A stretch of DNA of 39,536 nt from a virus, in the IMG/VR virus record IMGVR_UViG_3300042475_005351, positions 1 to 39,536 of that record. One strand, 5' to 3'. Within the stretch, counting starts at the first letter, position 1. Each line of letters starts with the position of its first letter. Below the pieces are notes generated by a model, which worked only from the letters and a program-made list of their open reading frames with translations, ran no database searches and had not been told where the DNA came from. This document shows, piece after piece, positions 2,307 to 31,594 of this stretch. The position numbers and the translations under genes were made by a program.

Positions 2307-2786
2307 ATGTGGGACTCAATTACCAATATTGCCAAGAATGCAGCTTCGTTTCTCTCTTCAAATAGAGTACCACCAGGCACACCTATAGAGTTACAAGATT
2401 CTTTACGCAAAGAGAATCACTTTAAGTCAAAGAAGTTCTTTTTAGCTTTTTCTTCTTTTATAGGGGTATTAGCTTTTTATTTACTCTCTGTTGGTATTCT
2501 CTTTTTACTACCTACTGAGAATGAGCTTATAGCAGGTTACGTCACTATCTTTACAAAGACTATAGAGATTGTAGCTATTATTGTTGCTTCTTATATTGGT
2601 GTCCAGGCTGCAATCGACTTTAAGTATGGTAGTTCTTCTAGTACTAATCTTGACTCAGTTTTAACTTCTGAGCAAAGAGAAGAGAAGGTCATACAAGAGA
2701 TGACAATTAAGTATGCTGAAAAGTTTAAGAATGATCCATCATATGCGCCAATTGAATGGGTTTTTAGTCAGGAGGAAGGTATATGA
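2307..2786 (+). CDS. Putative holin (two-TM membrane protein)
   Basis: A 159-aa protein with a polar N-terminus (1-45), two hydrophobic helices (about 46-68 and 76-104) and a soluble charged C-terminal tail (105-159). The gene overlaps the endolysin by four bases (ATGA at 2783), the usual translational coupling of a lysis pair, and this supports holin as the role. No family signature is evident and holins are too diverse to identify by sequence alone. An ATAAATA box (2293-2299) lies 7 bp before the ATG and overlaps the rmuC stop codon. A regulator of the endolysin or an unrelated membrane protein remain possible. Confidence 0.6.
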   Translation: MWDSITNIAKNAASFLSSNRVPPGTPIELQDSLRKENHFKSKKFFLAFSSFIGVLAFYLLSVGILFLLPTENELIAGYVTIFTKTIEIVAIIVASYIGVQAAIDFKYGSSSSTNLDSVLTSEQREEKVIQEMTIKYAEKFKNDPSYAPIEWVFSQEEGI

Positions 2787-3478
2787 AAGTCTTACAAAGA
2801 GGAGATGTAAGTGAAGAGGTAAAGCAGTGGCAGTTGTTCTTACAGTCTGCTGGTTATAAGATCCCGGCTGTAGATGGAGCTTTTGGTCCTCAAACAGAAA
2901 GAGAGACAATTAAATTTCAAGTTAAGAATGGTCTAAAGCCTGACGGTGAAGTAGGACCTAAGACCTGGAAGTACGTAACTACAGTATCAAGTAATACACC
3001 ATTATCTCAAAAATGGCCTAAACAGGATTACACTTCAATGTGTAACTTCTACGGACCGGTTGGCGAGAATATGACTCAGCTTGAATTACCTTATGTTATG
3101 AAACTGGCTTGGGATACAGGAGTAACTGTTAAGAAGATCTCTTGTCATCAAAAATGCGCTAAATCGTTTCATAATATTTTCGAAAAGACTTTAAAGCATT
3201 ACGGAGAGGCTGAAATTAAAAAGCTAAGATTAGATTTATTTGGTGGCTGTTTAAATGTTCGTAGAATGCGTGGAGGTAGTGCTTATTCTATCCATTCCTG
3301 GGGGGCTGCTATAGATTTAGATCCTGATAACAATCAGCTTAAGTGGGGTAGAGATAGAGCTACATTAGCAAAACCAGCATATGAACCATTTTGGAAAATT
3401 GTTGAAGAAGAGGGAGCTACAAGTTTAGGTAGAGAGCGCAATTTCGACTGGATGCATTTTCAGTTTGCTTACCTATAA
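2783..3478 (+). CDS. Endolysin: peptidoglycan-binding domain plus M15 peptidase
   Basis: The 231-aa product combines an N-terminal PG_binding_1 domain (about residues 5-65, DGAFGPQTERE and GEVGPKTW) with a C-terminal peptidase of the M15/VanY type. Zinc ligands are visible as H171 and D178 in SIHSWGAAIDLD and H225 in DWMHF. M15 enzymes cleave peptide cross-links or stems of peptidoglycan as DD- or LD-endo/carboxypeptidases. There is no signal peptide, so export would need the holin-like protein encoded just upstream. AGGAAGG a few bases before the ATG is a good Shine-Dalgarno site. It is most likely the lysis enzyme rather than a virion hydrolase, because of this context. Confidence 0.92.
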   Translation: MKVLQRGDVSEEVKQWQLFLQSAGYKIPAVDGAFGPQTERETIKFQVKNGLKPDGEVGPKTWKYVTTVSSNTPLSQKWPKQDYTSMCNFYGPVGENMTQLELPYVMKLAWDTGVTVKKISCHQKCAKSFHNIFEKTLKHYGEAEIKKLRLDLFGGCLNVRRMRGGSAYSIHSWGAAIDLDPDNNQLKWGRDRATLAKPAYEPFWKIVEEEGATSLGRERNFDWMHFQFAYL

Positions 3479-3484
3479 TTTTTA

Positions 3485-3491
3485 ATAAATA
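3485..3491 (+). promoter_or_regulatory. ATAAATA box before the 166-aa gene
   Basis: AATAAATA, ending 7 bp before ATG 3499; resembles the T4 late promoter core but leaves almost no leader. Confidence 0.5.
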
Positions 3492-3498
3492 ATATACA

Positions 3499-3999
3499 AT
3501 GGATACTTTTGATAAACTAGTAGATCAATTATTAAACGAATTTAATGTAGAAGATCGTAACGACCCAGCCTTCTATGATTATGCTGTTATTTTTGTACAG
3601 CAATTAAAAGCTCGTAATATGGTGCAACCAGGTGTTGATGTTCGTAAAACAGCTATGCAGATTGTTAAAGATGAATATTATAACTATATTGATACTAATG
3701 ATAATGTTTCTTTTAAGGTGTCATTCTTCTTTGATAATAAGACACCAACTCCTAACAATTTAAGAATTGAAGTTGATAATCTTCTTAATGACGACCCCCC
3801 AAAGATGATTGAGAATACTCATGAAGAGGAGTCAATTGATGAGATTGTTGACTTTTTAGATACAGCTTCAAGAGAGGCTGAACAGAAGTCAGGTGAAGTT
3901 CCTGGTCAAAACGTACCAGCTGAAGTAGGAGAGACTCCATCAGAAATGCCTCAAGCACAGCAAGTGCCTAATACGTCCCAATATCTAAAGGGACTATAA
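3499..3999 (+). CDS. Hypothetical acidic protein, candidate capsid-targeted
   Basis: A 166-aa acidic protein. Residues 1-75 are helical and residues 110-166 are low-complexity, rich in Glu, Pro and Gln, and probably disordered. I recognise no family. The N-terminus is a short amphipathic helix ending in LLNE (residues 11-14), resembling the hydrophobic-x-Glu end of the peptides in the - strand cluster that follows, so it may be packaged in the head. An ATAAATA box (3485-3491) lies 7 bp before the ATG. It converges with the next gene, the two stops lying 2 bp apart, so no terminator fits between them. Confidence 0.65.
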   Translation: MDTFDKLVDQLLNEFNVEDRNDPAFYDYAVIFVQQLKARNMVQPGVDVRKTAMQIVKDEYYNYIDTNDNVSFKVSFFFDNKTPTPNNLRIEVDNLLNDDPPKMIENTHEEESIDEIVDFLDTASREAEQKSGEVPGQNVPAEVGETPSEMPQAQQVPNTSQYLKGL

Positions 4000-4001
4000 A
4001 A

Positions 4002-4247
4002 TTAATCAAACTTCAACAAACGAAGTAGGTTAGGAAGAGTTTCTGGTAAGTCTTGTTTTCTTTCTGCACTTGAAACGATATCATTTAATTCATTGATAAT
4101 ATCTTTCAATACCTCTGAGACTAACGCGCCAGACTTTGTTTTTGCTGTAGGGTCTAAACTAACATACAAGTCGTACAAATCATTTGCGACAGAGTAGCTT
4201 GTATTTTCTTTTACAATTTTGTTATAAACATCTTTAAATTTATTCAT
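4002..4247 (-). CDS. Small helical protein with N-terminal hydrophobic-x-Glu motif
   Basis: An 81-aa, mostly helical protein of unknown function. Its start (MNKFKDVYNKIVKEN) has the same layout as several neighbours: Lys-rich, an aromatic residue at 8, and a hydrophobic-x-Glu motif at 12-14. In T4, similar peptides target internal proteins to the prohead and are cut by gp21 after hydrophobic-x-Glu. It is the last gene of a - strand run, starting 3 bp after the stop of the 128-aa gene. Packaging in the head is an inference; the enzymatic role, if any, is unknown. Confidence 0.65.
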   Translation of the reverse strand: MNKFKDVYNKIVKENTSYSVANDLYDLYVSLDPTAKTKSGALVSEVLKDIINELNDIVSSAERKQDLPETLPNLLRLLKFD

Positions 4248-4250
4248 TTC

Positions 4251-4637
4251 TTATACCTCTTCTTCCGGGTAACCTGCCATATACACACTCTTGTACTCGT
4301 ATCTATTTAACATCTCTTCAATACGAGGGACATCAAAATCTAAAGCCTCATGCCAACTACTTGAGGTGTGTACTGTAAGTTCTAAAACTGCTGATCCGTT
4401 ATTAAGAGTATTTTTATAAGGTTCAACGGCATACTTATTAGTAGCTTCAAGCTCACGTTTAATACTTGAATAAGCTGCTTGTTTTGCAGGTTCAATACCT
4501 CTTTCTTCTTCTCTACGAAGATAGATTTCTACTGCAATTTCTGAACCCTGAGACTCATCTTCTCCTTCTATATAATCTTGTTCGTTAATAACTTTTTTAT
4601 AAGCTTCTTCTAGAAGAAGTTGATCTCTCTTTTTCAT
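4251..4637 (-). CDS. Hypothetical protein with candidate capsid-targeting peptide
   Basis: A 128-aa, strongly charged protein with no family I recognise. The N-terminus is a Lys-rich amphipathic helix ending in VINE (16-19) before QDY, matching the VINE/IINE pattern of neighbouring genes. The remainder looks alpha/beta: a glutamate-rich helix (about 30-68), then strands near 84-92 and 115-122. ATAAATA on the - strand (4644-4650) ends 6 bp upstream of the ATG. It sits in the run of small genes 4002-7291, each with its own start signal rather than being tightly coupled. Confidence 0.65.
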   Translation of the reverse strand: MKKRDQLLLEEAYKKVINEQDYIEGEDESQGSEIAVEIYLRREEERGIEPAKQAAYSSIKRELEATNKYAVEPYKNTLNNGSAVLELTVHTSSSWHEALDFDVPRIEEMLNRYEYKSVYMAGYPEEEV

Positions 4638-4643
4638 GTATTA

Positions 4644-4650
4644 TATTTAT
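4644..4650 (-). promoter_or_regulatory. ATAAATA box before the 128-aa gene
   Basis: AATAAATATAATAC precedes ATG 4637; box-to-start gap 6 bp. Confidence 0.5.
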
Positions 4651-4657
4651 TCTAATA

Positions 4658-4825
4658 CTACTCTTCGAAGTCTTCAGGCTCTAGGCCCTTAATCTTTTCT
4701 TTAAGATAATTTAAAGCGTATTCAATATCGCTAATATCGTGAAACTCTCCACTGAATACCTCTGACAGGATTTCATCTACAGCATGATCAACAATTGACT
4801 CGATTTCTGGTTCTTTAAGTGACAT
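4658..4825 (-). CDS. Small acidic protein (55 aa)
   Basis: A 55-codon frame (MSLKEPEIESIV at the start, EPEDFEE at the end) fills the gap between the 128-aa and 110-aa genes exactly. It begins with ATG at 4825, 13 bp after the upstream stop, and ends in TAG at 4658. The product is strongly acidic and helical, without a signal peptide or a recognisable family. It has no obvious N-terminal hydrophobic-x-Glu peptide, unlike several neighbours. Codon use and neat packing support a real gene; the function is unknown. Confidence 0.6.
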   Translation of the reverse strand: MSLKEPEIESIVDHAVDEILSEVFSGEFHDISDIEYALNYLKEKIKGLEPEDFEE

Positions 4826-4838
4826 ATATAAATCTTAT

Positions 4839-5171
4839 TTAATCTTCGATATATTTCAACTGCTTTGTTGTAAACTTCTTTTCAGAACAGAATATAGAGT
4901 AGATTAATCTTAATACACCTTTTTTAGATTCCATTACTATATCGGTACATTCTATCTTATTTTGCTCTAATTGATTAAGACCTGTTCGGATACTTTTAAC
5001 AGCTAAGGCCACATCTTCGGGTTTAAATTCTTTAGCAAAGACTATATGAGTCTCGTAGAACGGATCAGGCATTATAGTGACACCGTTTTTAAAGAATGCT
5101 GTAACAGCTGTTTCTGCTCCTAGAAGTAAGCAGCAATCTTTTAAGTCTTCGTTAAATTCGAAGCCAGTCAC
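4839..5171 (-). CDS. Hypothetical protein, GTG start
   Basis: A 110-aa protein of mixed alpha/beta composition with two cysteines near the N-terminus (DCCLL, 12-16) and one at residue 95. I recognise no family. The start is GTG at 5171, chosen because ATAAATA (5178-5184) ends 6 bp upstream, as at other genes here; an ATG overlapping it is immediately followed by a stop in its own frame. It lacks the N-terminal hydrophobic-x-Glu peptide of its neighbours. It lies in the - strand run with only 14 bp to the upstream gene. Confidence 0.6.
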   Translation of the reverse strand: MTGFEFNEDLKDCCLLLGAETAVTAFFKNGVTIMPDPFYETHIVFAKEFKPEDVALAVKSIRTGLNQLEQNKIECTDIVMESKKGVLRLIYSIFCSEKKFTTKQLKYIED

Positions 5172-5177
5172 ATAAAG

Positions 5178-5184
5178 TATTTAT
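5178..5184 (-). promoter_or_regulatory. ATAAATA box before the 110-aa gene
   Basis: Ends 6 bp before the GTG at 5171 and supports that start. Confidence 0.5.
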
Positions 5185-5185
5185 G

Positions 5186-5614
5186 TTATTTGTTCCAGGG
5201 CAATTTGTTACGTGTCGGATACAAATTTGTCTGTGAAATTGTGCGCTGAGCTTCATCAGCTGCTTTAGCTACGAGATCTTGTGCTGCAAGTAAATTTTTC
5301 CTACCTTCTTCACTAATATACTTTTTGTAAGCTATTATTTGAAGATCATGTAGTATGTCCTCTAAACGATCTTTATCGTCTAAGATAGGATGTCTTTTAA
5401 CTTCCTCATTAACAATTGATTCATTACAAGCTTTTTTAATATCTCCTGCAGAAACGCCATACTCATCAGCTAATTTATTGTAGTTTACTTTTTGGCCTTT
5501 TTTCTTTGCAGCTTTAGCTTTTTTAGCAGCATCTTGGATTTGTCTGTGTTCCCAGGCGCGCTCTTCGGCATCTTCATTAATAATCTTACTATACACTAGA
5601 TCGAATTTTTTCAT
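5186..5614 (-). CDS. Hypothetical helical protein with candidate capsid-targeting peptide
   Basis: A 142-aa, predominantly helical protein. The N-terminal peptide (MKKFDLVYSKIINED) ends in IINE at 11-14, the clearest example of the shared hydrophobic-x-Glu motif. A basic segment (about residues 31-42, KKAKAAKKKGQK) and a helix-turn-helix-like stretch (about 43-62, YNKLADEYGVSAGDIKKA) follow. This raises the possibility of DNA binding, which would suit an internal head protein carried with the genome. No family is recognised, and both packaging and DNA binding are inferred from composition. Confidence 0.65.
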   Translation of the reverse strand: MKKFDLVYSKIINEDAEERAWEHRQIQDAAKKAKAAKKKGQKVNYNKLADEYGVSAGDIKKACNESIVNEEVKRHPILDDKDRLEDILHDLQIIAYKKYISEEGRKNLLAAQDLVAKAADEAQRTISQTNLYPTRNKLPWNK

Positions 5615-5623
5615 ATATAATAA

Positions 5624-5851
5624 TTAAGGATTCTCAGCTAATATTTCTTCGTATGTTGTTTGTACACCTTCTTCTCCGAGCTGCATAAGATAATATTCAT
5701 CTCCTTCATCTCCGGGGACTATATCCATAATTATCCAACCATCTTTGTCTCCTTCGAGAGTCACAACATCACCGACATTAAAACGTTTTGGTGCAGGCTG
5801 ACCTGTTACGTAAGCTTCATTAACAACATTTTTAAAGTATCCTTTTTTCAT
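5624..5851 (-). CDS. Small beta-rich protein with candidate capsid-targeting peptide
   Basis: A 75-aa protein. The N-terminal peptide MKKGYFKNVVNEAY ends in VVNE at 9-12. The remainder (about 22-75) looks like a compact SH3-like beta barrel: RFNVGDVVTLEGDKDGW, then IIMDIV and YYLMQL strands. Such folds are common in small nucleic-acid- or protein-binding modules, but no specific family is recognised. ATAAATA (5859-5865, - strand) ends 7 bp before the ATG. It sits 9 bp upstream of the 142-aa gene in the same direction. Confidence 0.65.
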   Translation of the reverse strand: MKKGYFKNVVNEAYVTGQPAPKRFNVGDVVTLEGDKDGWIIMDIVPGDEGDEYYLMQLGEEGVQTTYEEILAENP

Positions 5852-5858
5852 TATATTA

Positions 5859-5865
5859 TATTTAT
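5859..5865 (-). promoter_or_regulatory. ATAAATA box before the 75-aa gene
   Basis: AATAAATATAATATA directly before ATG 5851; gap 7 bp. Confidence 0.5.
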
Positions 5866-6053
5866 TGACAATGATAGTTAAGAAATCTTTGAGCGCCCTT
5901 AGCTGTAGCGTTGTTCTTATTCTTTTGCTTAGATTTTAAAGCTCTAGCTTTTGCGCAGGTAACCTTACCTTTTACCTGACGCTTTAAGATTCCAGGACGA
6001 ACCGGGTCGTGAATAGACTTTTTTTCGTTTATGTATTCTTTTAGAGAGATCAT
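5862..6053 (-). CDS. Small basic protein with candidate capsid-targeting peptide
   Basis: A 63-aa, very basic protein (many Lys/Arg, two Cys), probably nucleic-acid-binding or disordered. The N-terminus MISLKEYINEKKS closely resembles the T4 internal-protein targeting peptide MKTYQEFIAEA: a Lys-x-Tyr/Phe-Ile-x-Glu core with Glu at 10. Cleavage after E10 by a gp21-type protease would release a 53-aa basic peptide. Its ATG overlaps the stop of the 413-aa gene by four bases (ATGA), so translation is coupled. No enzymatic family is recognised. Confidence 0.65.
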   Translation of the reverse strand: MISLKEYINEKKSIHDPVRPGILKRQVKGKVTCAKARALKSKQKNKNNATAKGAQRFLNYHCQ

Positions 6054-7291
6054 TTTAAAGATACTTGAACAGCTGGGCCATTTATTTTATCTTTAAAATC
6101 GATACTTGAAAATTTAAATTGTGGTATAAATTGCTCTAAATTATCTAGATTAAAAAATAACGACTCTTCAGGTGTAATGAATAATATATGTTTAAATGGT
6201 TCTGGTTTTTTAAGAAGCTCTTGTTTATAGTTAAAGAAACTCATACGGGCTATAGCATCAAATGCTTGTTGCCTGTTCATATTGTCAACACCAGGGAATA
6301 ATCGATCATATTCACTAGATGGTACAAACTTATATGTTTTGGTAATCATTTCTCGCATAAATTTATCTCCTAGGTTTTTACCTGGTAATATTTTATTAAG
6401 TATTTGAGCATGATCTAAAATGTTTATGCTTGCTTCACCTGAACGGCGAGTACCTGGTGTTGGGTTAGCAGTGAACATATTACTAGGTAGGATGAACCTA
6501 TTTCGATCAGGTAGGTTTTTTGGTATTTCTTTATACACTTCATTTTGAAGTAGCGGTTCACCAAAACTATCTTTACTATCTTTTAATCTACCACCACCGC
6601 TACCTAAAGATATTTGTCCTTTAACCTCAACCGGTAAACCACTTACTAGAAGATCTCCTTTTGTTGCAAAGGTTATTTGAGGTGATAAAAGAGATAATGA
6701 GACTTCTCCAGGGCCACGCGTACCAGCTTTTTCTCCAAAAGCATAACGAAAGACATCCATAATAAGTTCTTTACTAACAGAGCCATAACCCTTTATAAAA
6801 TTACTAGTAGGTTGTCTCCCTTCTTGTAATAATCTGTTTGTGTCGATGTAACTTACTTTACCATACATCTTTAAAAATTCCTCAATTTCATTTGTATCGG
6901 CTTGGGAATTAAGTAAAGCGTTTATAAGGGTTTGTTTATATATACCTTTTGCTGCTAAATGATCAACTTCAGGTTCTGTAAATTTCTTTTGCAACCAATA
7001 TGAAGGGTTGGTTTTAAATGTATCTTCTTTATACTCTTTTCCTTTTTTACCTTTAGGTAAAGGCTCGTCAACTACAACAAGCTTTTTATATATAGAGTTT
7101 ATTATTTCAGGATTCTCTTTCATTTTTTGTATAATGAAAGCCATTCTATCTTGATTTTTTAATCGTTGTTTATCGTCTTGCTCACAGACTAAACTATAAG
7201 ACTCAGACAGAGTACGAAAAGTAGATTTAGTTTTAGGTGCTTTATTGGCTAATAAAGAGTCGTAGATCTTATTGAGAAAGTAATCAGACAT
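6050..7291 (-). CDS. PD-(D/E)xK nuclease-like phage protein
   Basis: A 413-aa protein found at the head of the - strand run of small genes. Residues 194-236 contain the order GPGE (E196), GDLLVSG (D213), EVKG (E222-V-K224) and GGGRL, which fits a PD-(D/E)xK nuclease core: an early Glu, then D-x8-E-x-K. The N-terminal 40 residues are helical and contain LVCE (34-37), a possible protease-processing motif, and a Lys/Pro-rich segment follows (about 68-95). ATAAATA (7302-7308) ends 10 bp before the ATG. The nuclease call rests on motif spacing alone; a structural virion protein of unknown function is the alternative. Confidence 0.7.
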   Translation of the reverse strand: MSDYFLNKIYDSLLANKAPKTKSTFRTLSESYSLVCEQDDKQRLKNQDRMAFIIQKMKENPEIINSIYKKLVVVDEPLPKGKKGKEYKEDTFKTNPSYWLQKKFTEPEVDHLAAKGIYKQTLINALLNSQADTNEIEEFLKMYGKVSYIDTNRLLQEGRQPTSNFIKGYGSVSKELIMDVFRYAFGEKAGTRGPGEVSLSLLSPQITFATKGDLLVSGLPVEVKGQISLGSGGGRLKDSKDSFGEPLLQNEVYKEIPKNLPDRNRFILPSNMFTANPTPGTRRSGEASINILDHAQILNKILPGKNLGDKFMREMITKTYKFVPSSEYDRLFPGVDNMNRQQAFDAIARMSFFNYKQELLKKPEPFKHILFITPEESLFFNLDNLEQFIPQFKFSSIDFKDKINGPAVQVSLK

Positions 7292-7301
7292 ATAGATATA
7301 T

Positions 7302-7308
7302 TATTTAT
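7302..7308 (-). promoter_or_regulatory. ATAAATA box before the 413-aa gene
   Basis: TAATAAATAATATA, ending 10 bp before ATG 7291. It lies back to back with the + strand box at 7315-7322. Confidence 0.5.
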
Positions 7309-7314
7309 TACGGA

Positions 7315-7322
7315 TATAAATA
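7315..7322 (+). promoter_or_regulatory. TATAAATA box before the 59-aa gene
   Basis: Exact 8-base match to the T4 late promoter core TATAAATA, 6 bp before ATG 7329; part of a divergent pair. Confidence 0.55.
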
Positions 7323-7328
7323 ATTGAA

Positions 7329-7508
7329 ATGTCTTTTAATAGTCTTATACAGCAATACCTCGAAGAGAAGGCTGAACCTACAAAGGAAGACTATGAAGCT
7401 ATGCCCTGGAGTCTAGAAATTGTTAAAGATTCAAAGCGATCGGAAATGTATAATGAGCTAGGGGACCTCATTATTAAGCTTTTTGAGCTAAGATCTAGGT
7501 TAGAGTAA
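7329..7508 (+). CDS. Small acidic protein (59 aa) with N-terminal LEE motif
   Basis: A 59-codon frame starts at ATG 7329 and ends at TAA 7506-7508. TATAAATA (7315-7322) ends 6 bp upstream, the same arrangement as at longer genes, which supports it as real. The product is helical and acidic; its start (MSFNSLIQQYLEEKAE) has the layout of the candidate capsid-targeting peptides with hydrophobic-x-Glu at 11-13. It is divergent from the 413-aa gene and overlaps the end of the - strand 80-aa gene by 14 bp. Function is unknown. Confidence 0.6.
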   Translation: MSFNSLIQQYLEEKAEPTKEDYEAMPWSLEIVKDSKRSEMYNELGDLIIKLFELRSRLE

Positions 7509-7737
7509 CCGGTTCAGGTAAGGTCACAGTAGCTGGCATAGGCACAGAAGGGTTAGCCAAAGTACGAGACAGTTCCGGTACTTCTTGAGGCTGGGCAAAT
7601 TGAATCACCTGATTACTCTTTCTGCTATTACCCTTACGGCGATAACCTAAAATCATTACCTTACCGTCCTCGGTCTTCTGAAGAATGGGAACGAGACGGC
7701 CTTGCATTACTAATTTGTTAACTTTTTGTGGTGACAT
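7495..7737 (-). CDS. Small hypothetical protein downstream of tmRNA
   Basis: The 80-aa product starts MSPQKVNKLVM; the C-terminal third is Pro/Thr/Val-rich and probably disordered, and the middle is basic (YRRKGNSRKSN). I place the start at 7737 because a longer reading to 7845 would run through the 3' end of the tmRNA, including its acceptor and T-arm. It lies 16 bp downstream of the tmRNA 3' end and overlaps the small + gene by 14 bp at the stop. No family is recognised; it could have been co-acquired with the tmRNA. Confidence 0.5.
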   Translation of the reverse strand: MSPQKVNKLVMQGRLVPILQKTEDGKVMILGYRRKGNSRKSNQVIQFAQPQEVPELSRTLANPSVPMPATVTLPEPVTLT

Positions 7738-7753
7738 ATATTTTGTTTGAAAG

Positions 7754-8210
7754 TGGTGGAGGTGCCGGCCTACGATAGCCGGTTCCCTTGCAACGTACTC
7801 TAAAAGGTCTACATGTTTTAGTATCTTTAGCATTTCAGCCACCATACGGTAACGAAGACTTTAGGCTGCTTGGCGATACTAACCGAGTTTTTAGTCTGCC
7901 TATAGACATTATCGCAATCTATAAACGGTTGATATTTTGTTATTACATTAGAACTACCAACAATCTAATTCCCTCTGCTATCAATACAACCTTAGAGGAT
8001 CTGGTTATAAGGACCTTAGGCTGCTAAGAGCATTTCGTCTTCGATGCCAGCGAGGTACTCGTCAGCATTGTTGAAGATATGCTCGGCTTCAGCCAAGATG
8101 GAGTCAGTATTATCTGCTCTTAATTTTTTTAATCAGCTTTTAACGAGGCCAACTGATTAACCTCGACATGCGCTTTTAGATTCTGTTCCAGGTCGAATCC
8201 TTTCACCCCC
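7754..8210 (-). ncRNA. ssrA: Transfer-messenger RNA (tmRNA), phage-encoded
   Basis: All hallmarks of one-piece tmRNA are present on the - strand. The 5' GGGGGTG (8204-8210) pairs with CACCTCC (7758-7764), followed by A and encoded CCA (7754-7756). The D-loop region has GGATTCGAC (8192-8200). P2 pairs 8173-8180 with 7799-7806. Pseudoknot 1 is textbook: CGAGG/CCTCG (8161-8165/8144-8148) and an 8-bp second stem (8153-8160/8129-8136), with TTGGCCTCGTTAAAAGC between. Resume codon GCA at 8117 is preceded by TAAGA, retaining the conserved U and A at -5 and -4. The tag ORF ends LLAA-stop. tmRNA with SmpB and alanyl-tRNA synthetase rescues stalled ribosomes and tags products for proteolysis. At 457 nt it is long. 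Its T-arm has an 8-nt loop instead of 7. No smpB is seen in the window. Confidence 0.95.
8016..8117 (-). other. tmRNA tag-peptide reading frame (33 codons + stop)
   Basis: Resume codon GCA at 8115-8117, stop TAA at 8016-8018. The tag begins ADNTDSILAEAE, continues HIFNNADEYLAG and ends IEDEMLLAA; with the tRNA-borne alanine this is a 34-residue tag. Most bacterial tags have about 8-20 encoded residues. The C-terminal LAA fits recognition by ClpXP-type proteases. The last codons can form a small hairpin (CTTAG/CTAAG) around the stop. Confidence 0.9.
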
Positions 8211-8228
8211 ATAAATGTTAAAGATCTG

Positions 8229-8864
8229 TTAAAGCTTATACAATACTTTTGTCAAAGCATTATGTAAACTGTTGGTGCCTCTAATTGTATATCTAATTAG
8301 AGTTCTGTACCAGCTAAATTTTCTTAAAAACGAAACAATTCTTCTTGAAAGTTTTTTATTCTCTATGGCTCTTTTTTCAGCCCAGGTTTTATTATTTTTA
8401 ATTCTTTCGCTAATCGGGTCTTTAGTAACTTTAATAAGTTTAATTTCATCTAGTTTACCTTTAGTAAAGTAAGCTTCAAATTCAAACCACCAATCATAAC
8501 CCTGAATTAATTCAATATCATCCCAGGACATTTGCTCCGGGTCATCGCTAATCCAATCCCAATGATAATCATTATTGTCGGTATGAGTAGTATAGAAGTT
8601 AATTGTACCGTGAAAATCAACATCTCTCCATTCTTCTTTAATGACCTCAAAATACCCTTTTAAGAAAGCACTATCATCATCTTTCCATTCTCTTTCTTGC
8701 CAGAGATGACGAAGTTTACCGGATTTAGTAATCTCGTAAGCATCTAAAGCGTTGTCTAAATCTTTAGTTTGAAAGTCTAGTTCTTCCCAATTGACATCAA
8801 GAGCTTTAAGCTCTTTAGTTAACGGAAGCTTTTTCTTTATGTAGATGTGATCGAACATTCCCAT
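8229..8864 (-). CDS. Conserved phage protein, MGMFD N-terminus, unknown function
   Basis: A 211-aa protein starting MGMFDHIYIK, a start resembling a group of small phage and bacterial hypothetical proteins beginning MGMFD. The middle is rich in Trp, Asp and Glu (about residues 45-135, including YHWDWISDDPEQ and GYDWWFEFEAYF). The C-terminus is basic and helical (about 150-211). There is no signal peptide or catalytic motif I can name. It lies immediately upstream of the tmRNA on the same strand (18 bp), so read-through transcription of the tmRNA from this gene is possible. It is divergent from phoH. Confidence 0.65.
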   Translation of the reverse strand: MGMFDHIYIKKKLPLTKELKALDVNWEELDFQTKDLDNALDAYEITKSGKLRHLWQEREWKDDDSAFLKGYFEVIKEEWRDVDFHGTINFYTTHTDNNDYHWDWISDDPEQMSWDDIELIQGYDWWFEFEAYFTKGKLDEIKLIKVTKDPISERIKNNKTWAEKRAIENKKLSRRIVSFLRKFSWYRTLIRYTIRGTNSLHNALTKVLYKL

Positions 8865-23285: not shown

Positions 23286-24254
23286 TTAGTGTCTAAGTTT
23301 TAACTTAGAACCGTCAAGCTTCTTCATCTCATTCAGATATCCGCCAACAGGAGATTGACTCTCAACTATTGGTGTAGAAATGACCTCGTCTTGTGTCTCT
23401 GTTGCTTCAGGGCGGTCAACGGCCTCAACGATCCGTCTTGTAACCTTCTCCTTAGCATCTTCAACTTGTTCGGAGGTTTCTTTCTCGAACATCTCAACTA
23501 CGTACTGATAGTTCTCTTGAATGTACTCGGGTGACTTACCTCTGAGTAACTTACTGACATATGCCTTAGTACTTTGTGGCATATCTTTTGTCTTTTCTTC
23601 AAGCAAAATTTTGGCTTCAGCGTTATTTAACTTTGAGTTAAGTGCTGTATTAGCCTCAAGTGCTTCATTCAATTCCTTCTTTAAGGAATCGATTGTTGTC
23701 TTACCATCAATGAGAGCGTCTTTGATCTCTCCATTGATAAATTCTTCGTTAATACCAACAAGCTTACGAATCTCGTCAAGAACTTTGCGTGAGCGAATAT
23801 TTTCAACAGCTTCATTTACTTGTGATGTTGGTACTACTTTTTCAAGATACAGATCCATGTAATTTGAAATCTCATCCACTAAACGTGAACGGAAGGATTC
23901 TGCTTCTTCTTTTAAAGTTGTTTCGTACTTCTCAACTACAGTCTCTAACTTTGCTGTGTGGTCTTCGTCGATCTTTGTAAGTACTGCTTTGAGCTTTTGG
24001 GCATGATCGAAATCAATTGTCTCAACAAGTTTTTGAAGCTTTGCTGTGTGATCAGAATCGATTGACTCGATTAATGATTCGAGCTTAGCAGCGTGATCTT
24101 CATCGATCTTTGTTGTTGTTGCTTCAACAGCAAGTTCTGCTCTTTGTTCTGCTTTTTCATTTACAGCAGCTTCGAATGCTTCGTGTACTGCGGTTAAGGT
24201 TTCTTCTGTGATGAGATCCTTAAACTGTTCTTTGAGAATTGATTTGAAGTCCAT
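23286..24254 (-). CDS. Prohead core scaffold protein, gp22-like
   Basis: A 322-aa, highly charged, helical protein between the protease and capsid genes, the T4 position of gp22. Residues 49-108 contain four consecutive 15-aa repeats with the core IDxDHxxKL. Further coiled coil follows (190-230) and then LRGKSPEYIQENYQYVVEMFE, a segment typical of gp22-type proteins. Many hydrophobic-x-Glu sites (for example ILKE 6-9, LITE 14-17, ILLEE) would let the gp21-type protease degrade it during maturation, as in T4. ATAAATA boxes (24265-24275) end 10 bp before the ATG. Confidence 0.85.
   Translation of the reverse strand: MDFKSILKEQFKDLITEETLTAVHEAFEAAVNEKAEQRAELAVEATTTKIDEDHAAKLESLIESIDSDHTAKLQKLVETIDFDHAQKLKAVLTKIDEDHTAKLETVVEKYETTLKEEAESFRSRLVDEISNYMDLYLEKVVPTSQVNEAVENIRSRKVLDEIRKLVGINEEFINGEIKDALIDGKTTIDSLKKELNEALEANTALNSKLNNAEAKILLEEKTKDMPQSTKAYVSKLLRGKSPEYIQENYQYVVEMFEKETSEQVEDAKEKVTRRIVEAVDRPEATETQDEVISTPIVESQSPVGGYLNEMKKLDGSKLKLRH
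23931..24110 (-). repeat. Four tandem 45-bp coding repeats in the scaffold gene
   Basis: Residues 49-63, 64-78, 79-93 and 94-108 of the scaffold protein share the pattern (K/S/T)IDxDHxxKLxxxxE/T. The period is exactly 15 aa, and the units differ at the DNA level, so the array is old rather than freshly duplicated. Confidence 0.85.
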
Positions 24255-24438: not shown

Positions 24439-25113
24439 TTAACCTAATTTAATCTTGTTAATGAAACCAATCAAGGCCTCTCTTAAGAATGTATCTGTGC
24501 CGTGTTTAGGCATGTTAGAAAGTTTTTCAGTAAGTTCTGCCTTAGCGCGTGCTGAGCATTCGATGATTGAACCGTCAGGACGAATCATATACTCTCTTGA
24601 CTCCATAACGGACTCAAGCATAGCATTTTGTACTGAAGGTTGGTGAACAACATCCAAGCAGATAAGATGGAAATTTGAAACGTGTTTAGCGTCTGACATC
24701 TCTTGAATATTACCTAAAGCACGGGAAGAGATACCCATTTTAATTCCGTCAGTAATAAGCGACTTAAGAAGTTGACCCATTGGTGTATTAAGCACTTGAG
24801 ACTTACCCATGAAGTAATTACCATTCTGTTTTAGTTCTGTAACAAGGTGACAGGCATTGACAGGATTAACTTCAGTTGATTGTGGGTGGTTCATTTCACC
24901 GATAGCTCTACGGGACTTAACCATTTCATCAGTATAGCGGTTAACCTCTTTAACCATTTCATCTAGTTTATAGATACGACCGTTTTGATTCTTTTGCTCG
25001 GCCATTAAGAATGGACCGGTGATGTAGAGTTTTTGTTCACCTTGACGGTTTTTTTCCTCGATCATGAAATCGAGCCCGTCATGGATATCTTCGACTAAAA
25101 ATTTAAGTCCCAT
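24439..25113 (-). CDS. Prohead core protease, gp21-like
   Basis: The 224-aa product resembles T4 gp21, the serine protease that cleaves head proteins after hydrophobic-x-Glu. Visible motifs are NGRIYKLDEM (44-53), GEMNHPQS (72-79, catalytic H76), GISSRALG (127-134, nucleophile S129 or S130) and CLDVVHQPS (152-160). Length matches T4 gp21 (about 210 aa). It leads the capsid cassette protease/small core protein/scaffold/capsid. It is divergent from the + strand membrane-protein gene. Its substrates probably include the scaffold, the capsid propeptide and the small proteins with hydrophobic-x-Glu N-termini at 4002-7508. Confidence 0.93.
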   Translation of the reverse strand: MGLKFLVEDIHDGLDFMIEEKNRQGEQKLYITGPFLMAEQKNQNGRIYKLDEMVKEVNRYTDEMVKSRRAIGEMNHPQSTEVNPVNACHLVTELKQNGNYFMGKSQVLNTPMGQLLKSLITDGIKMGISSRALGNIQEMSDAKHVSNFHLICLDVVHQPSVQNAMLESVMESREYMIRPDGSIIECSARAKAELTEKLSNMPKHGTDTFLREALIGFINKIKLG

Positions 25114-26055: not shown

Positions 26056-26510
26056 AGGCCTAAATGTTTTTCGGTAAGAATAGTAAATTCGTAACCCTTC
26101 TTCTTGCACCATTGCTCGGCTGCCTGCCACTTAGCTCTGTTTTTTACGTACTCTGCTTGACGCCGTAATAGAGCTTTTGTATTCTTACCTGGTTTAGGTG
26201 GCTGAGTTTGAATGGAGGGTTTAATCTCTATAAGATACTTTTTAAATTCACCGTTTTTTGTTTTAAGTGTTATATTAGAATCAACAAAGTAACGAGATAC
26301 TTTTCCAGTAAGAGGATTTTGATAAGGTACTATAATTGATTCTGAGCCCCATGATATCACAGCAGGGTTGTGGTCACACCAGCGCATGAATTTGAGTTCA
26401 TAGGAAGATCTCCATAATATCGGAAACGTGCCTGCATATTTTTGAGGGTACACAGGCTTAAAGATGCCTTGTTTAAACTTTCGATTACGTTTAGGTCTTA
26501 TCGTGTTCAT
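26052..26510 (-). CDS. Head completion nuclease, gp4-like
   Basis: The 152-aa product matches T4 gp4 (gp50) head-completion proteins in length and motifs: RSSYELKFMRWCD (34-46, E38), RYFVDSNI (73-80, D77) and LIEIKP (93-98, E95-x-K97). Together these form a TnsA-like PD-(D/E)xK nuclease core. T4 gp4 is needed to finish packaged heads before tail joining. Its start overlaps the end of the HNH gene by 20 bp, and its stop overlaps the convergent membrane-protein gene. Confidence 0.9.
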   Translation of the reverse strand: MNTIRPKRNRKFKQGIFKPVYPQKYAGTFPILWRSSYELKFMRWCDHNPAVISWGSESIIVPYQNPLTGKVSRYFVDSNITLKTKNGEFKKYLIEIKPSIQTQPPKPGKNTKALLRRQAEYVKNRAKWQAAEQWCKKKGYEFTILTEKHLGL

Positions 26511-27384
26511 ACAATTTAAAAAGTTCCTCTTTAGTTATAGAGCATTGTTTATGTTTCTTTAAATTATCTTTTTGTTCAAGCATTTGTAAATTATATTTTG
26601 ATGCTATTACTTCACATGGTATTTTGTCTACAAAACCTTGTAATACACTATATTTGTGATCAATGTGATATAAACCAGAACCGAACCCTCTTTTTAGTTT
26701 TGTAGGGTTTATTATGTCTCTGTATTTTTTGTAAGTTTGTTGTGTTAGATAGGTTACCTCTGCTCTATAGTCTTTAAAAAGGGTCAATACTTCTCTTTGA
26801 TTTTTAAGTTTCATTGTTTGAGCTCTTCTTTTAAAAATTTTATTTTTTTCTTCTTCTGTAGCATTTTTCCACCATTTATGAGCCCCGGTTTCTAGTAAAA
26901 CGTTTTTAACAAATTTCTTTCTATCTTTTAAAGAGAGTTTATTTAACCAGCCAAATTTTTCTTTTCTTTCTTGTTCGGTTAATTTTGCAGCATTATTTTT
27001 TCTTGTATTAGAAATTTTTTTCCTAAACTCTGCTTTTTCTTGAGGTGTTCTATTAGCATGTTTGTTTTTTAAATTAGTTTTAACTTTATTAATATAAACT
27101 TGATATTTGTTTGAGTTGTTTTTAAGGTTTTGTTGATGCATTATACCCCCACATTTATGACTACAGGTTTTTTTATAACCATCTTTTATATTAATAAATT
27201 TAGTAACACCATTACATATAACACAACCACTATAACAATTATTTAAAATATACTGATCGTAATATTGTTGACTTGTTATTTTATGTTGATATTTTATATG
27301 CTTAGCAAAAGACAAAAAGTTTTTAAACTGCTGTTTACAAATACAGCATACAGGACCTACTTCTTGCGGTTCACAAATTAACAT
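26491..27384 (-). CDS. HNH-type homing endonuclease with zinc fingers
   Basis: A 297-aa, strongly basic protein. The N-terminus has a C2H2-like finger (C13, C16, H29, H34) and a second Cys cluster (C54, C57, C74, C78). The middle is Lys-rich with helical repeats. The C-terminal HNH core is HIDHKYSVLQGF (240-251), with N265 in SKYNLQ and N274 in KDNLKKHK. It is a free-standing, intron-less endonuclease of the sort that invades phage genomes by cutting a neighbour's sequence in endonuclease-free relatives. It overlaps the upstream gene by 7 bp and gp4 by 20 bp. Its lower GC and Lys/Asn-rich composition differ from its neighbours. Confidence 0.85.
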   Translation of the reverse strand: MLICEPQEVGPVCCICKQQFKNFLSFAKHIKYQHKITSQQYYDQYILNNCYSGCVICNGVTKFINIKDGYKKTCSHKCGGIMHQQNLKNNSNKYQVYINKVKTNLKNKHANRTPQEKAEFRKKISNTRKNNAAKLTEQERKEKFGWLNKLSLKDRKKFVKNVLLETGAHKWWKNATEEEKNKIFKRRAQTMKLKNQREVLTLFKDYRAEVTYLTQQTYKKYRDIINPTKLKRGFGSGLYHIDHKYSVLQGFVDKIPCEVIASKYNLQMLEQKDNLKKHKQCSITKEELFKLYEHDKT

Positions 27385-27683
27385 TTCCAGCGTCTTCTTG
27401 CAGCGCAGCCCCTTGTATCTTTACCTGCACAGCCACCTGCCGGGATCCATGCTTTACTTCGAGCACAGAAGCTTTTTCTGCGCTTAGATGCTTTTGAACC
27501 CTTTTTAACCTTGCCAGTAACAGGTGCTTTTAAATTGGAACCTGTTGCACGGTTGTATTTTGCTCTACCTTTAGCTGTTAATCCTCCGCCGCGGCTTACG
27601 GGTAATTTCTCACCACGCTTAATAGAAAGGCTGGGCGCTTTTTTTTCTTCTAAAATTTCTAATACTGTATTATCAAAGTTCAT
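27378..27683 (-). CDS. Conserved small basic phage protein (DUF6321-like)
   Basis: A 101-aa, very basic protein with RGGGLTAKGRAKYNRATGSNLKAP-type sequence (about residues 31-55), then KRRKSFCARSKAW and a Cys/Arg-rich end (GGCAGKDTRGCAARRRWKC). This pattern is common in small phage proteins classed as DUF6321; the name is from memory. Its charge suggests nucleic acid or capsid association. The stop lies inside the start of the HNH gene (ATGTTAA overlap). It lies directly after the neck gene, with 8 bp between them. Confidence 0.72.
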   Translation of the reverse strand: MNFDNTVLEILEEKKAPSLSIKRGEKLPVSRGGGLTAKGRAKYNRATGSNLKAPVTGKVKKGSKASKRRKSFCARSKAWIPAGGCAGKDTRGCAARRRWKC

Positions 27684-29936: not shown

Positions 29937-30728
29937 TTACTTGAAGAATTCGCCCTTTTTGACGTTACCGACTTCAGCCTTACCTTTTGGTGACTGAAGG
30001 GCTTTGTTGAAAGGCTTAGCTGGCTTGAGCTCTGGATCTGATTCAACATCACCGCCGTGAGCTTTACCACCGTGGGGTTTTACTGTTCCGGCTTTGTTGT
30101 TCTTGTTTTGAAGAACTTTACTCTTATCACCGAGTGGCTTTAATTCAGTAGCTTCACCCATTGGCTTCTCTTCTTCTTTTTCTTCTGACTCTACTTCTTC
30201 TTCAGCTGATTCGTCACCGAATTCCATTTCAGCTTCGTCTTCTTTTTCTTCTGAACCAGCCTCGTCAGTTACTTTATCGAGAATTGTTTGAAGCTTACCC
30301 ATAAGATCTTTAAGATCTGAAACGAGATCTGACACTTCATCAGCTTCACCTTCGAGCTCGTCTACCATCTCTTCGTTTGAGGCTGGTACTTCAACTTCCA
30401 TTGAATCGGTGGTCATATCTTCCATCATGTCTTCATTGATTGTGGCTTTGAAAAGCTTTTCAAATGAACCTTCAAATGACTTCTTAGGAGCTTCTTCTAC
30501 TGAATCCTTAAGAACTTTTGGAGCAGCAGCTTTAACGTCTGTACCTTCAGCTTCTTCTGGCTTTTTAACGTCTTTAACCTTATCTGGGCCTTGGCCAGAT
30601 ACTGGTTGGGCTTTTTTGCCGTGAATCATTGCGTCTAATTCTTTTTCACCTTTAACTTTGTTAGAAGGTACTGATTCAGAAACTAGAACCTTTGATGCAT
30701 AGATTTCTTCGAGAGGATTTTTCTTCAT
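29937..30728 (-). CDS. Acidic low-complexity protein, candidate internal head/core protein
   Basis: A 263-aa, extremely acidic protein (EEE and DE runs at about 105-200) with a Lys/Gly-rich C-terminus (about 205-263). The N-terminus MKKNPLEEIYASKVLVSES ends in LVSE (15-18), matching the candidate capsid-targeting/protease motif. ATINED (95-100) and MGEATE (190-195) hold further hydrophobic-x-Glu or similar sites. These properties fit a prohead core or internal head protein processed by the gp21-type protease. I recognise no family. ATAAATA (30741-30747) ends 12 bp before the ATG, and a terminator follows the gene. Confidence 0.68.
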   Translation of the reverse strand: MKKNPLEEIYASKVLVSESVPSNKVKGEKELDAMIHGKKAQPVSGQGPDKVKDVKKPEEAEGTDVKAAAPKVLKDSVEEAPKKSFEGSFEKLFKATINEDMMEDMTTDSMEVEVPASNEEMVDELEGEADEVSDLVSDLKDLMGKLQTILDKVTDEAGSEEKEDEAEMEFGDESAEEEVESEEKEEEKPMGEATELKPLGDKSKVLQNKNNKAGTVKPHGGKAHGGDVESDPELKPAKPFNKALQSPKGKAEVGNVKKGEFFK

Positions 30729-30765: not shown

Positions 30766-31032
30766 TTATGTTAAAATTAGAGATGATAGGGATCTAAATG
30801 ATGTACTAAGAGTATTATAAGTTGTTGAGGTATTAGCAAATCCAGTTAATGTTTGAATGAGTGTATTGAATTGTGCTTTAAATAAAACATCTCTTGAACT
30901 TAATTGAACGGTATTTGCGCTAACATTTGCTAATCCAGTATCGAGTAAAACGTAATTGTTATTAATAGCACCCAAACTATCTCCAATACATTCACTTTCT
31001 GCTATAATTTTATCTATAAATGAGTATGGCAT
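30766..31032 (-). CDS. Short fibre-like protein sharing the ECIGDS motif
   Basis: An 88-aa protein. SECIGDSLGAINNNYVLLD (13-31) matches the N-terminal motif of the 185-aa neighbour and the 684-aa fibre. The remainder is Thr/Ser/Asn-rich helical sequence with no catalytic signature. It begins 4 bp after the 185-aa gene. It may be an attachment or adaptor protein of the tail or baseplate, or a shortened fibre that has lost its distal domain. Confidence 0.65.
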   Translation of the reverse strand: MPYSFIDKIIAESECIGDSLGAINNNYVLLDTGLANVSANTVQLSSRDVLFKAQFNTLIQTLTGFANTSTTYNTLSTSFRSLSSLILT

Positions 31033-31036
31033 ATTA

Positions 31037-31594
31037 TTATTTACTGTGGAAAACTAACATTACTAGCGGTGGATCGTAAAATTGACCAAGTAAAGTACGG
31101 GTTATAATACGACATTGGGTAGTTCCTGGGTCAGGGAAAGGTTCAGTTGGACTCAAATTTACTACTCCTGAGTCTACACCAGTAGTGCCTGGAGGTAGAG
31201 GAGAGACAGTACCAGTAACTATAAACCCTTTTGTTAAACCAGGGGGAGCAATATTAACAAGATACTTACCCGTATCTTCTCTTAAAACGTTTGTTATATT
31301 GTAACTACTTTCGATATGCCGGTTTATATTGTTAAAGTTAGTTGTTGCTTGGCCGTCGTTACCTGTTGTTTGACGGCCTCTAAAATTAACCCATGCACTT
31401 GCAAGTCTTGGGGTAGCAGATATTGAATTAATAATAGTTGTTAGGTTATTGAGTGTAGTATTGATCTGTATAAGATCACTATTAACAGTAACTATCGAAT
31501 CTTTAATATTGCTGTAATTTCCATTAATAGCAATTAATGAATTACCAATACATTCAGATTTATCAATAGTTGTTATTGTAGGTACTGTTGCCAT
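31037..31594 (-). CDS. Short tail fibre-like protein
   Basis: A 185-aa protein with the N-terminal motif DKSECIGNSLIAINGNY (12-28), a short coiled segment (about 30-60), and a C-terminal domain beginning LASAWVNFRGRQ with HIESSYNITNVLREDTGKYLVNI. This kind of AWVNF...SYN...GxYxVN sequence is common in the tips of phage tail fibres and is likely a small beta-rich distal domain. ATAAATA (31604-31610) ends 9 bp before the ATG. Host binding is inferred. Confidence 0.75.
   Translation of the reverse strand: MATVPTITTIDKSECIGNSLIAINGNYSNIKDSIVTVNSDLIQINTTLNNLTTIINSISATPRLASAWVNFRGRQTTGNDGQATTNFNNINRHIESSYNITNVLREDTGKYLVNIAPPGLTKGFIVTGTVSPLPPGTTGVDSGVVNLSPTEPFPDPGTTQCRIITRTLLGQFYDPPLVMLVFHSK

Follow-up and report, generated by a model that had tools for sequence, protein, structure and literature searches.

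Shared N-termini in the 3499-7508 cluster

The locus at 3499-7508 of a 39.5-kb IMG/VR virus record (the whole stretch analysed, here called the window) raises the question of whether the similar starts of its small proteins are addresses for the phage head. The window spans head and tail genes of a T4-like myovirus, in which gp23, gp22 and gp21 correspond to PF07068, PF25623 and PF03420 (Pfam), and the closest cultured relatives found display just 33-41% identity in gp23 and gp21. Loci of relatives were fetched by gp21 (64 loci) and by PhoH (79 loci). The tagged cluster is located between an endolysin-like gene and a phoH gene, and its shared N-termini are very probably T4-type capsid-targeting sequences, by which the proteins would bind the scaffold, be cleaved by gp21 and enter with the DNA.

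The signal was written as phi-x-x-phi-phi-x-Glu with the Glu at residues 9-25, a form taken from the window genes and from the T4 rule, where residues 4 and 7 act in targeting and residues 8 and 10 in processing (PMC9026906). This rule matched 8 of the 10 genes of 3499-7508 and 2 of 31 non-head genes elsewhere in the window (Fisher 1.9e-5), and since it was partly drawn from these same genes, independent checks weigh more. Shuffled sequences gave a mean of 0.5 matches per 10, and 8 were reached in 0 of 5000 shuffles. These counts bear out, and strengthen, the common Lys/aromatic start ending in hydrophobic-x-Glu that the preliminary description had proposed for the genes at 3499, 4002, 4251, 5186, 5624, 5862 and 7329, whose coordinates and N-termini agree with the window ORFs.

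These seven are the cluster genes counted as tagged, namely 3499-3999 (plus strand; signal MDTFDKLVDQLLNE at 3499-3540, then FNVEDRND...; mature pI 4.3, acidic; rule match); 4002-4247 (minus; MNKFKDVYNKIVKE, 4206-4247; strict regex and rule); 4251-4637 (minus; MKKRDQLLLEEAYKKVINE, 4581-4637; rule); 5186-5614 (minus; MKKFDLVYSKIINE, 5573-5614; mature pI 8.9, basic; strict regex and rule); 5624-5851 (minus; MKKGYFKNVVNE, 5816-5851; rule); 5862-6053 (minus; MISLKEYINE, 6024-6053, in the register of T4 IPII/IPIII; mature pI 10.9, very basic; rule); and 7329-7508 (plus; MSFNSLIQQYLEE, 7329-7367; strict regex and rule, with homologues starting similarly). The gene at 4658-4825 (minus) fits the rule in the window and was left out of the count, its homologues being without it, and 4839-5171 (minus) is without a tag by the rule and by homologue comparison. 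As in the seven cluster genes, a signal of about 10-20 residues ending in hydrophobic-x-Glu was observed beyond the cluster in a DUF6321 protein (Pfam) at 27378-27683 (minus; MNFDNTVLEILEE, 27645-27683; pI 11.6, very basic), and gp21 and gp22 carry the signal too. Signal length in the window is mostly 12-19 residues, against 10 in the strict T4 form; the tagged cluster genes carry I, V or L two residues ahead of the Glu, the residues following it are variable, and the mature cargo is mostly acidic, in contrast with the T4 IPs. The S/A-x-E cleavage motif of phiKZ-like phages was considered as well and does not describe these I, V or L sites.

In the relatives, the hit rate of the rule was 13% for N-terminal positions against 4.5% further along, and a stricter regex matched 36 of 2138 proteins against about 1 expected. 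Where homologues exist (3499, 5862 and 7329), the motif is kept; 4002, 5186 and 5624 had no homologue in the fetched loci, and 5186 had no close relative among viral contigs by peptide pattern. The gene at 3499, previously described as a looser member, is instead among the best, as Glu14 and Phe4 are invariant in 8 aligned sequences. For the cluster proteins, no credible family came out of Pfam, PHROGs or NCBIfam, and family searches found no recognisable anti-defence domain in the cluster cargo.

Processing genes, late-promoter-like signals and swappable tags

A gp21-family prohead protease is encoded in the same genome at 24439-25113 (minus), as previously noted, with a Peptidase_S77 match (PF03420, E 9e-29), an H/S/D triad (H76, S129/S130 and D154) that is invariant in comparison with the gp21 of T4 and others, and an N-terminal FMIEE of its own. 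Similarly, the gp22-type scaffold at 23286-24254 (minus; PF25623) has an N-terminal DLITE that is kept in homologues, and a putative prohead core protein at 29937-30728 (minus), without a Pfam match, has VLVSE at residue 18, hydrophobic-x-Glu lying near this residue in the homologues of most loci.

The motif [AT]TAAATA, which we take to resemble the T4 late promoter, was observed in the sense direction 13-21 nt ahead of 18 of 43 starts, compared with 3 antisense and 3.3 in shuffled sequence, and its owners include gp21, gp22, the core protein and several cluster genes. One site lies upstream of 4251 (4644-4650, minus), and further sites lie at 3485-3491 (plus), 5859-5865 (minus), 7302-7308 (minus) and 7316-7322 (plus). 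In the relatives the motif is commoner at tagged genes (74 of 121, versus 245 of 676; orthologues are included in both counts). As a promoter it would give very short leaders, and it may alternatively be an A-rich translation signal.

Tag and cargo were observed to move separately. Homologues of 3499 keep Phe4, Leu12 and Glu14 while the remainder of the tag is swapped, as in MKKFDLVYSELLKE; the first nine residues of 5186 are those of the 3499 homologues in loci L079 and L081; near-identical versions of the 4251 start stand on five bodies without detected similarity, adjoining gp21 in relatives; the 27378 tag fronts other kinds of basic body at the corresponding place; and homologues of 5862 have the tag kept or swapped, its body in Flavobacterium phage immuto forming the end of a 252-residue protein that starts MKKSQLRQIIKE. 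A paper on Baltic Flavobacterium phages contains no virion mass spectrometry and makes no mention of immuto. N-termini common to proteins without detected similarity elsewhere gave 305 pairs, against 43 and 13 for internal windows, the pairs being non-independent and including a tail-fibre motif. The signal is thus common to otherwise unrelated proteins, as observed for the 3499 homologues, the N-terminus pairs and the 6050 family, and the tag probably serves as a swappable address, acquired by unrelated cargo genes that sit in fast-changing clusters.

The tail-fibre motif, ECIG[DN]SL, is another modular N-terminus and heads proteins of the tail-fibre region whose bodies are not detectably related (window 30766-31032 and 31037-31594; loci L005, L015, L019, L021 and L029). 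A gene at 26491-27384, zinc-finger/homing-endonuclease-like by eye, adjoins the DUF6321 gene and was observed in only 3 gp21 loci.

The gene at 6050-7291 (minus) lies within the cluster and was absent from the earlier list of tagged genes; it is probably a further cargo, judging from its N-terminal region (7181-7291), the start of which is near-identical in relatives. The signal fits only through a longer variant, in which residue 37 ends the possible site SLVCE. In three relatives, 12-14 of the first 15 residues are identical to the window gene and the hypervariable body is 16-24% identical. The body carries G-x-G-E196...D213...E222-x-K224, of which E196, D213, E222 and K224 are invariant in 10 divergent members, and this E...D...E-x-K pattern, the signature of PD-(D/E)XK nucleases, suggests at motif level a nuclease-like protein. 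The AlphaFold prediction had a pLDDT of 42; a homologue model (pLDDT 63) had no significant PDB match, and a viral library gave only two uncharacterised phage proteins. Family searches gave no match for 6050, a profile search of PDB gave nothing credible, no close relative was found among viral contigs by peptide pattern, and the family members of loci L070 and L082 had no match in phage records.

Tags in T4 and in cyanophage virions

As a control, the strict ten-residue form matched 5 of 250 called ORFs in 150 kb of T4, which were ipII, ipIII, alt, gene 24 and gene 61.1, the last being the only one not known to be a gp21 substrate. T4 gene 61.1 (NC_000866 18966-19130, L156) starts MKTFKEFIKE and may be a further internal protein. 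IPII, IPIII, Alt and gp24 are known gp21 substrates (PMC5694885, PMC9026906 and the T4 record). The strict form did not match ipI; the loose pattern occurred in 8% of T4 ORFs and also missed IPI, so that a single match carries little weight and the rule is not complete.

The virion proteome of S-CREM2, a distant T4-like cyanophage, was determined by mass spectrometry and has been published with coordinates (PMC10665884). The loose form was present in 7 of 29 virion-detected non-tail proteins versus 10 of 157 undetected ones (P=0.007), and the strict form, applied after it, in 5 of 29 versus 1 of 157 (P=3.6e-4). The tagged virion proteins include a SAM hydrolase, a kinase and a cytidylyltransferase, and a Cas9-like protein has the tag at residue 25. 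For the virion proteome of S-SCSM1, likewise a T4-like cyanophage, enrichment was not significant (strict 1 of 22 versus 3 of 306, P=0.24; loose P=0.81 for part of the genome). The cytidylyltransferase/NMNAT proteins start MKSFLQFLKE in S-SCSM1, where the protein is virion-detected; MKRYTNFLSE in S-CREM1; MKKFSAFLKE in P-SSM4; and MKKFSAFLNE in Syn19. The tag is absent from the NMNAT of S-CBWM1, which has been described as a non-T4 cyanomyovirus. In OQ984149 (63451, L161), the annotated cytidyltransferase start seems to leave out a KNFSQYLLE tag, which lies upstream and uses a non-ATG start.

Proposed packaging and its alternatives

The cluster proteins would be made late, together with the head proteins; their tags would form short amphipathic helices attaching them to the scaffold core of the prohead; the gp21-type protease would cut after hydrophobic-x-Glu; and the mature proteins would stay in the head among the DNA and enter the next host cell along with it. 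The steps after the tag are modelled on T4, and it is inferred that the proteins of this phage are packaged, cleaved and injected. The capsid targeting put forward in the preliminary description is well supported indirectly, by the enrichment, the modularity of tag and cargo, the gp21 and gp22 N-termini, the late-promoter-like signals, the T4 control and the cyanophage virion mass spectrometry, and because the outside checks in T4 and S-CREM2 agree, packaging is well supported by inference. The leading guess for the cargo is a role in early takeover or counter-defence. Counter-defence is made plausible by the T4 IPs, which inhibit distinct GmrSD restriction enzymes (PMC12373910); host takeover is an alternative suggested by the tagged enzyme-like proteins of relatives.

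A less likely, though real, possibility is that the proteins enter the prohead by the tag and serve there as core, scaffold or DNA-compaction proteins instead of host effectors, for which the small basic 5862 and 27378 proteins would be suited and with which the related N-termini of gp22 and the core protein agree; the cargo is, however, fast-changing and often acidic, and enzyme-like tagged domains occur in relatives (ADP-ribosyltransferase, GNAT, cytidylyltransferase, AAA/VWA). That the starts are generic amphipathic helices with another role, such as membrane, oligomer or chaperone binding, with the Glu incidental, is unlikely: the frequency of the loose pattern among T4 ORFs would suit it, whereas the window tail and other non-head genes mostly lack the tag, the enrichment in relatives is confined to the N-terminus, and virion-detected S-CREM2 proteins are enriched. 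Although the motif is short and degenerate, chance resemblance picked by eye from many genes is scarcely credible and is refuted by the shuffles, the stricter regex and the conservation in homologues.

The principle behind capsid targeting is already known from T4. IPI, IPII and IPIII likewise combine an N-terminal helix ending in hydrophobic-x-Glu with unrelated cargo, a gp21-family protease and variable loci (PMC3012670, PMC9026906, PMC12373910), but the window signals are mostly longer than ten residues, many cargo proteins are acidic and without detected similarity to known families, and the battery is longer. The S-CREM2 and S-SCSM1 virion enzymes carry the same kind of tag on cargo different from that of the window. 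In phiKZ and SPN3US, a related protease removes propeptides of ejection proteins after x-x-Glu, although these are mostly long, with S/A-x-E sites (PMC5694885, PMC9026906). What is new is the distant clade, the mostly longer signals, a cargo battery for which family libraries showed no relatives, one cargo that is probably nuclease-like, and the connection of the tag with unexplained enzymes in cyanophage virions, for which no paper was found in the open-access literature searched, a search that was incomplete. The cyanophage proteome authors could not separate virion enzymes from possible carry-over (PMC10665884, PMC9602691).

With roughly even chances, T4-like phages at large load many unrelated proteins by one short swappable tag, including nuclease-like, ADP-ribosyltransferase, acetyltransferase, NAD-related and AAA/VWA enzymes, and their injected proteome can be read from the genome. 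If so, the proteins that uncultured T4-like phages deliver alongside their DNA could be predicted from sequence alone, such co-injected proteins would be the first molecules facing host defences, and the NMNAT, SAM hydrolase and kinase in cyanophage virions would be explained.

Further tagged genes were observed in relatives. Locus L067 encodes a MoxR-type AAA ATPase (1088-2560) beside a DUF2201/VWA protein (2578-3972), both with hydrophobic-x-Glu near the N-terminus; a series of other tagged genes occupies 4015-8325. Tagged ADP-ribosyltransferase-like genes in L072 (5270-6163; ART-PolyVal, E 1e-8) and, more weakly, L015 (6843-7649; weak PARP match) are possible analogues of T4 Alt, which matches the strict form and is delivered with the DNA, whereas the window contains no ADP-ribosyltransferase-like gene. 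In addition, a GNAT acetyltransferase in L057 (7823-8320) starts MKSFKIFYSE, in the exact T4 register.
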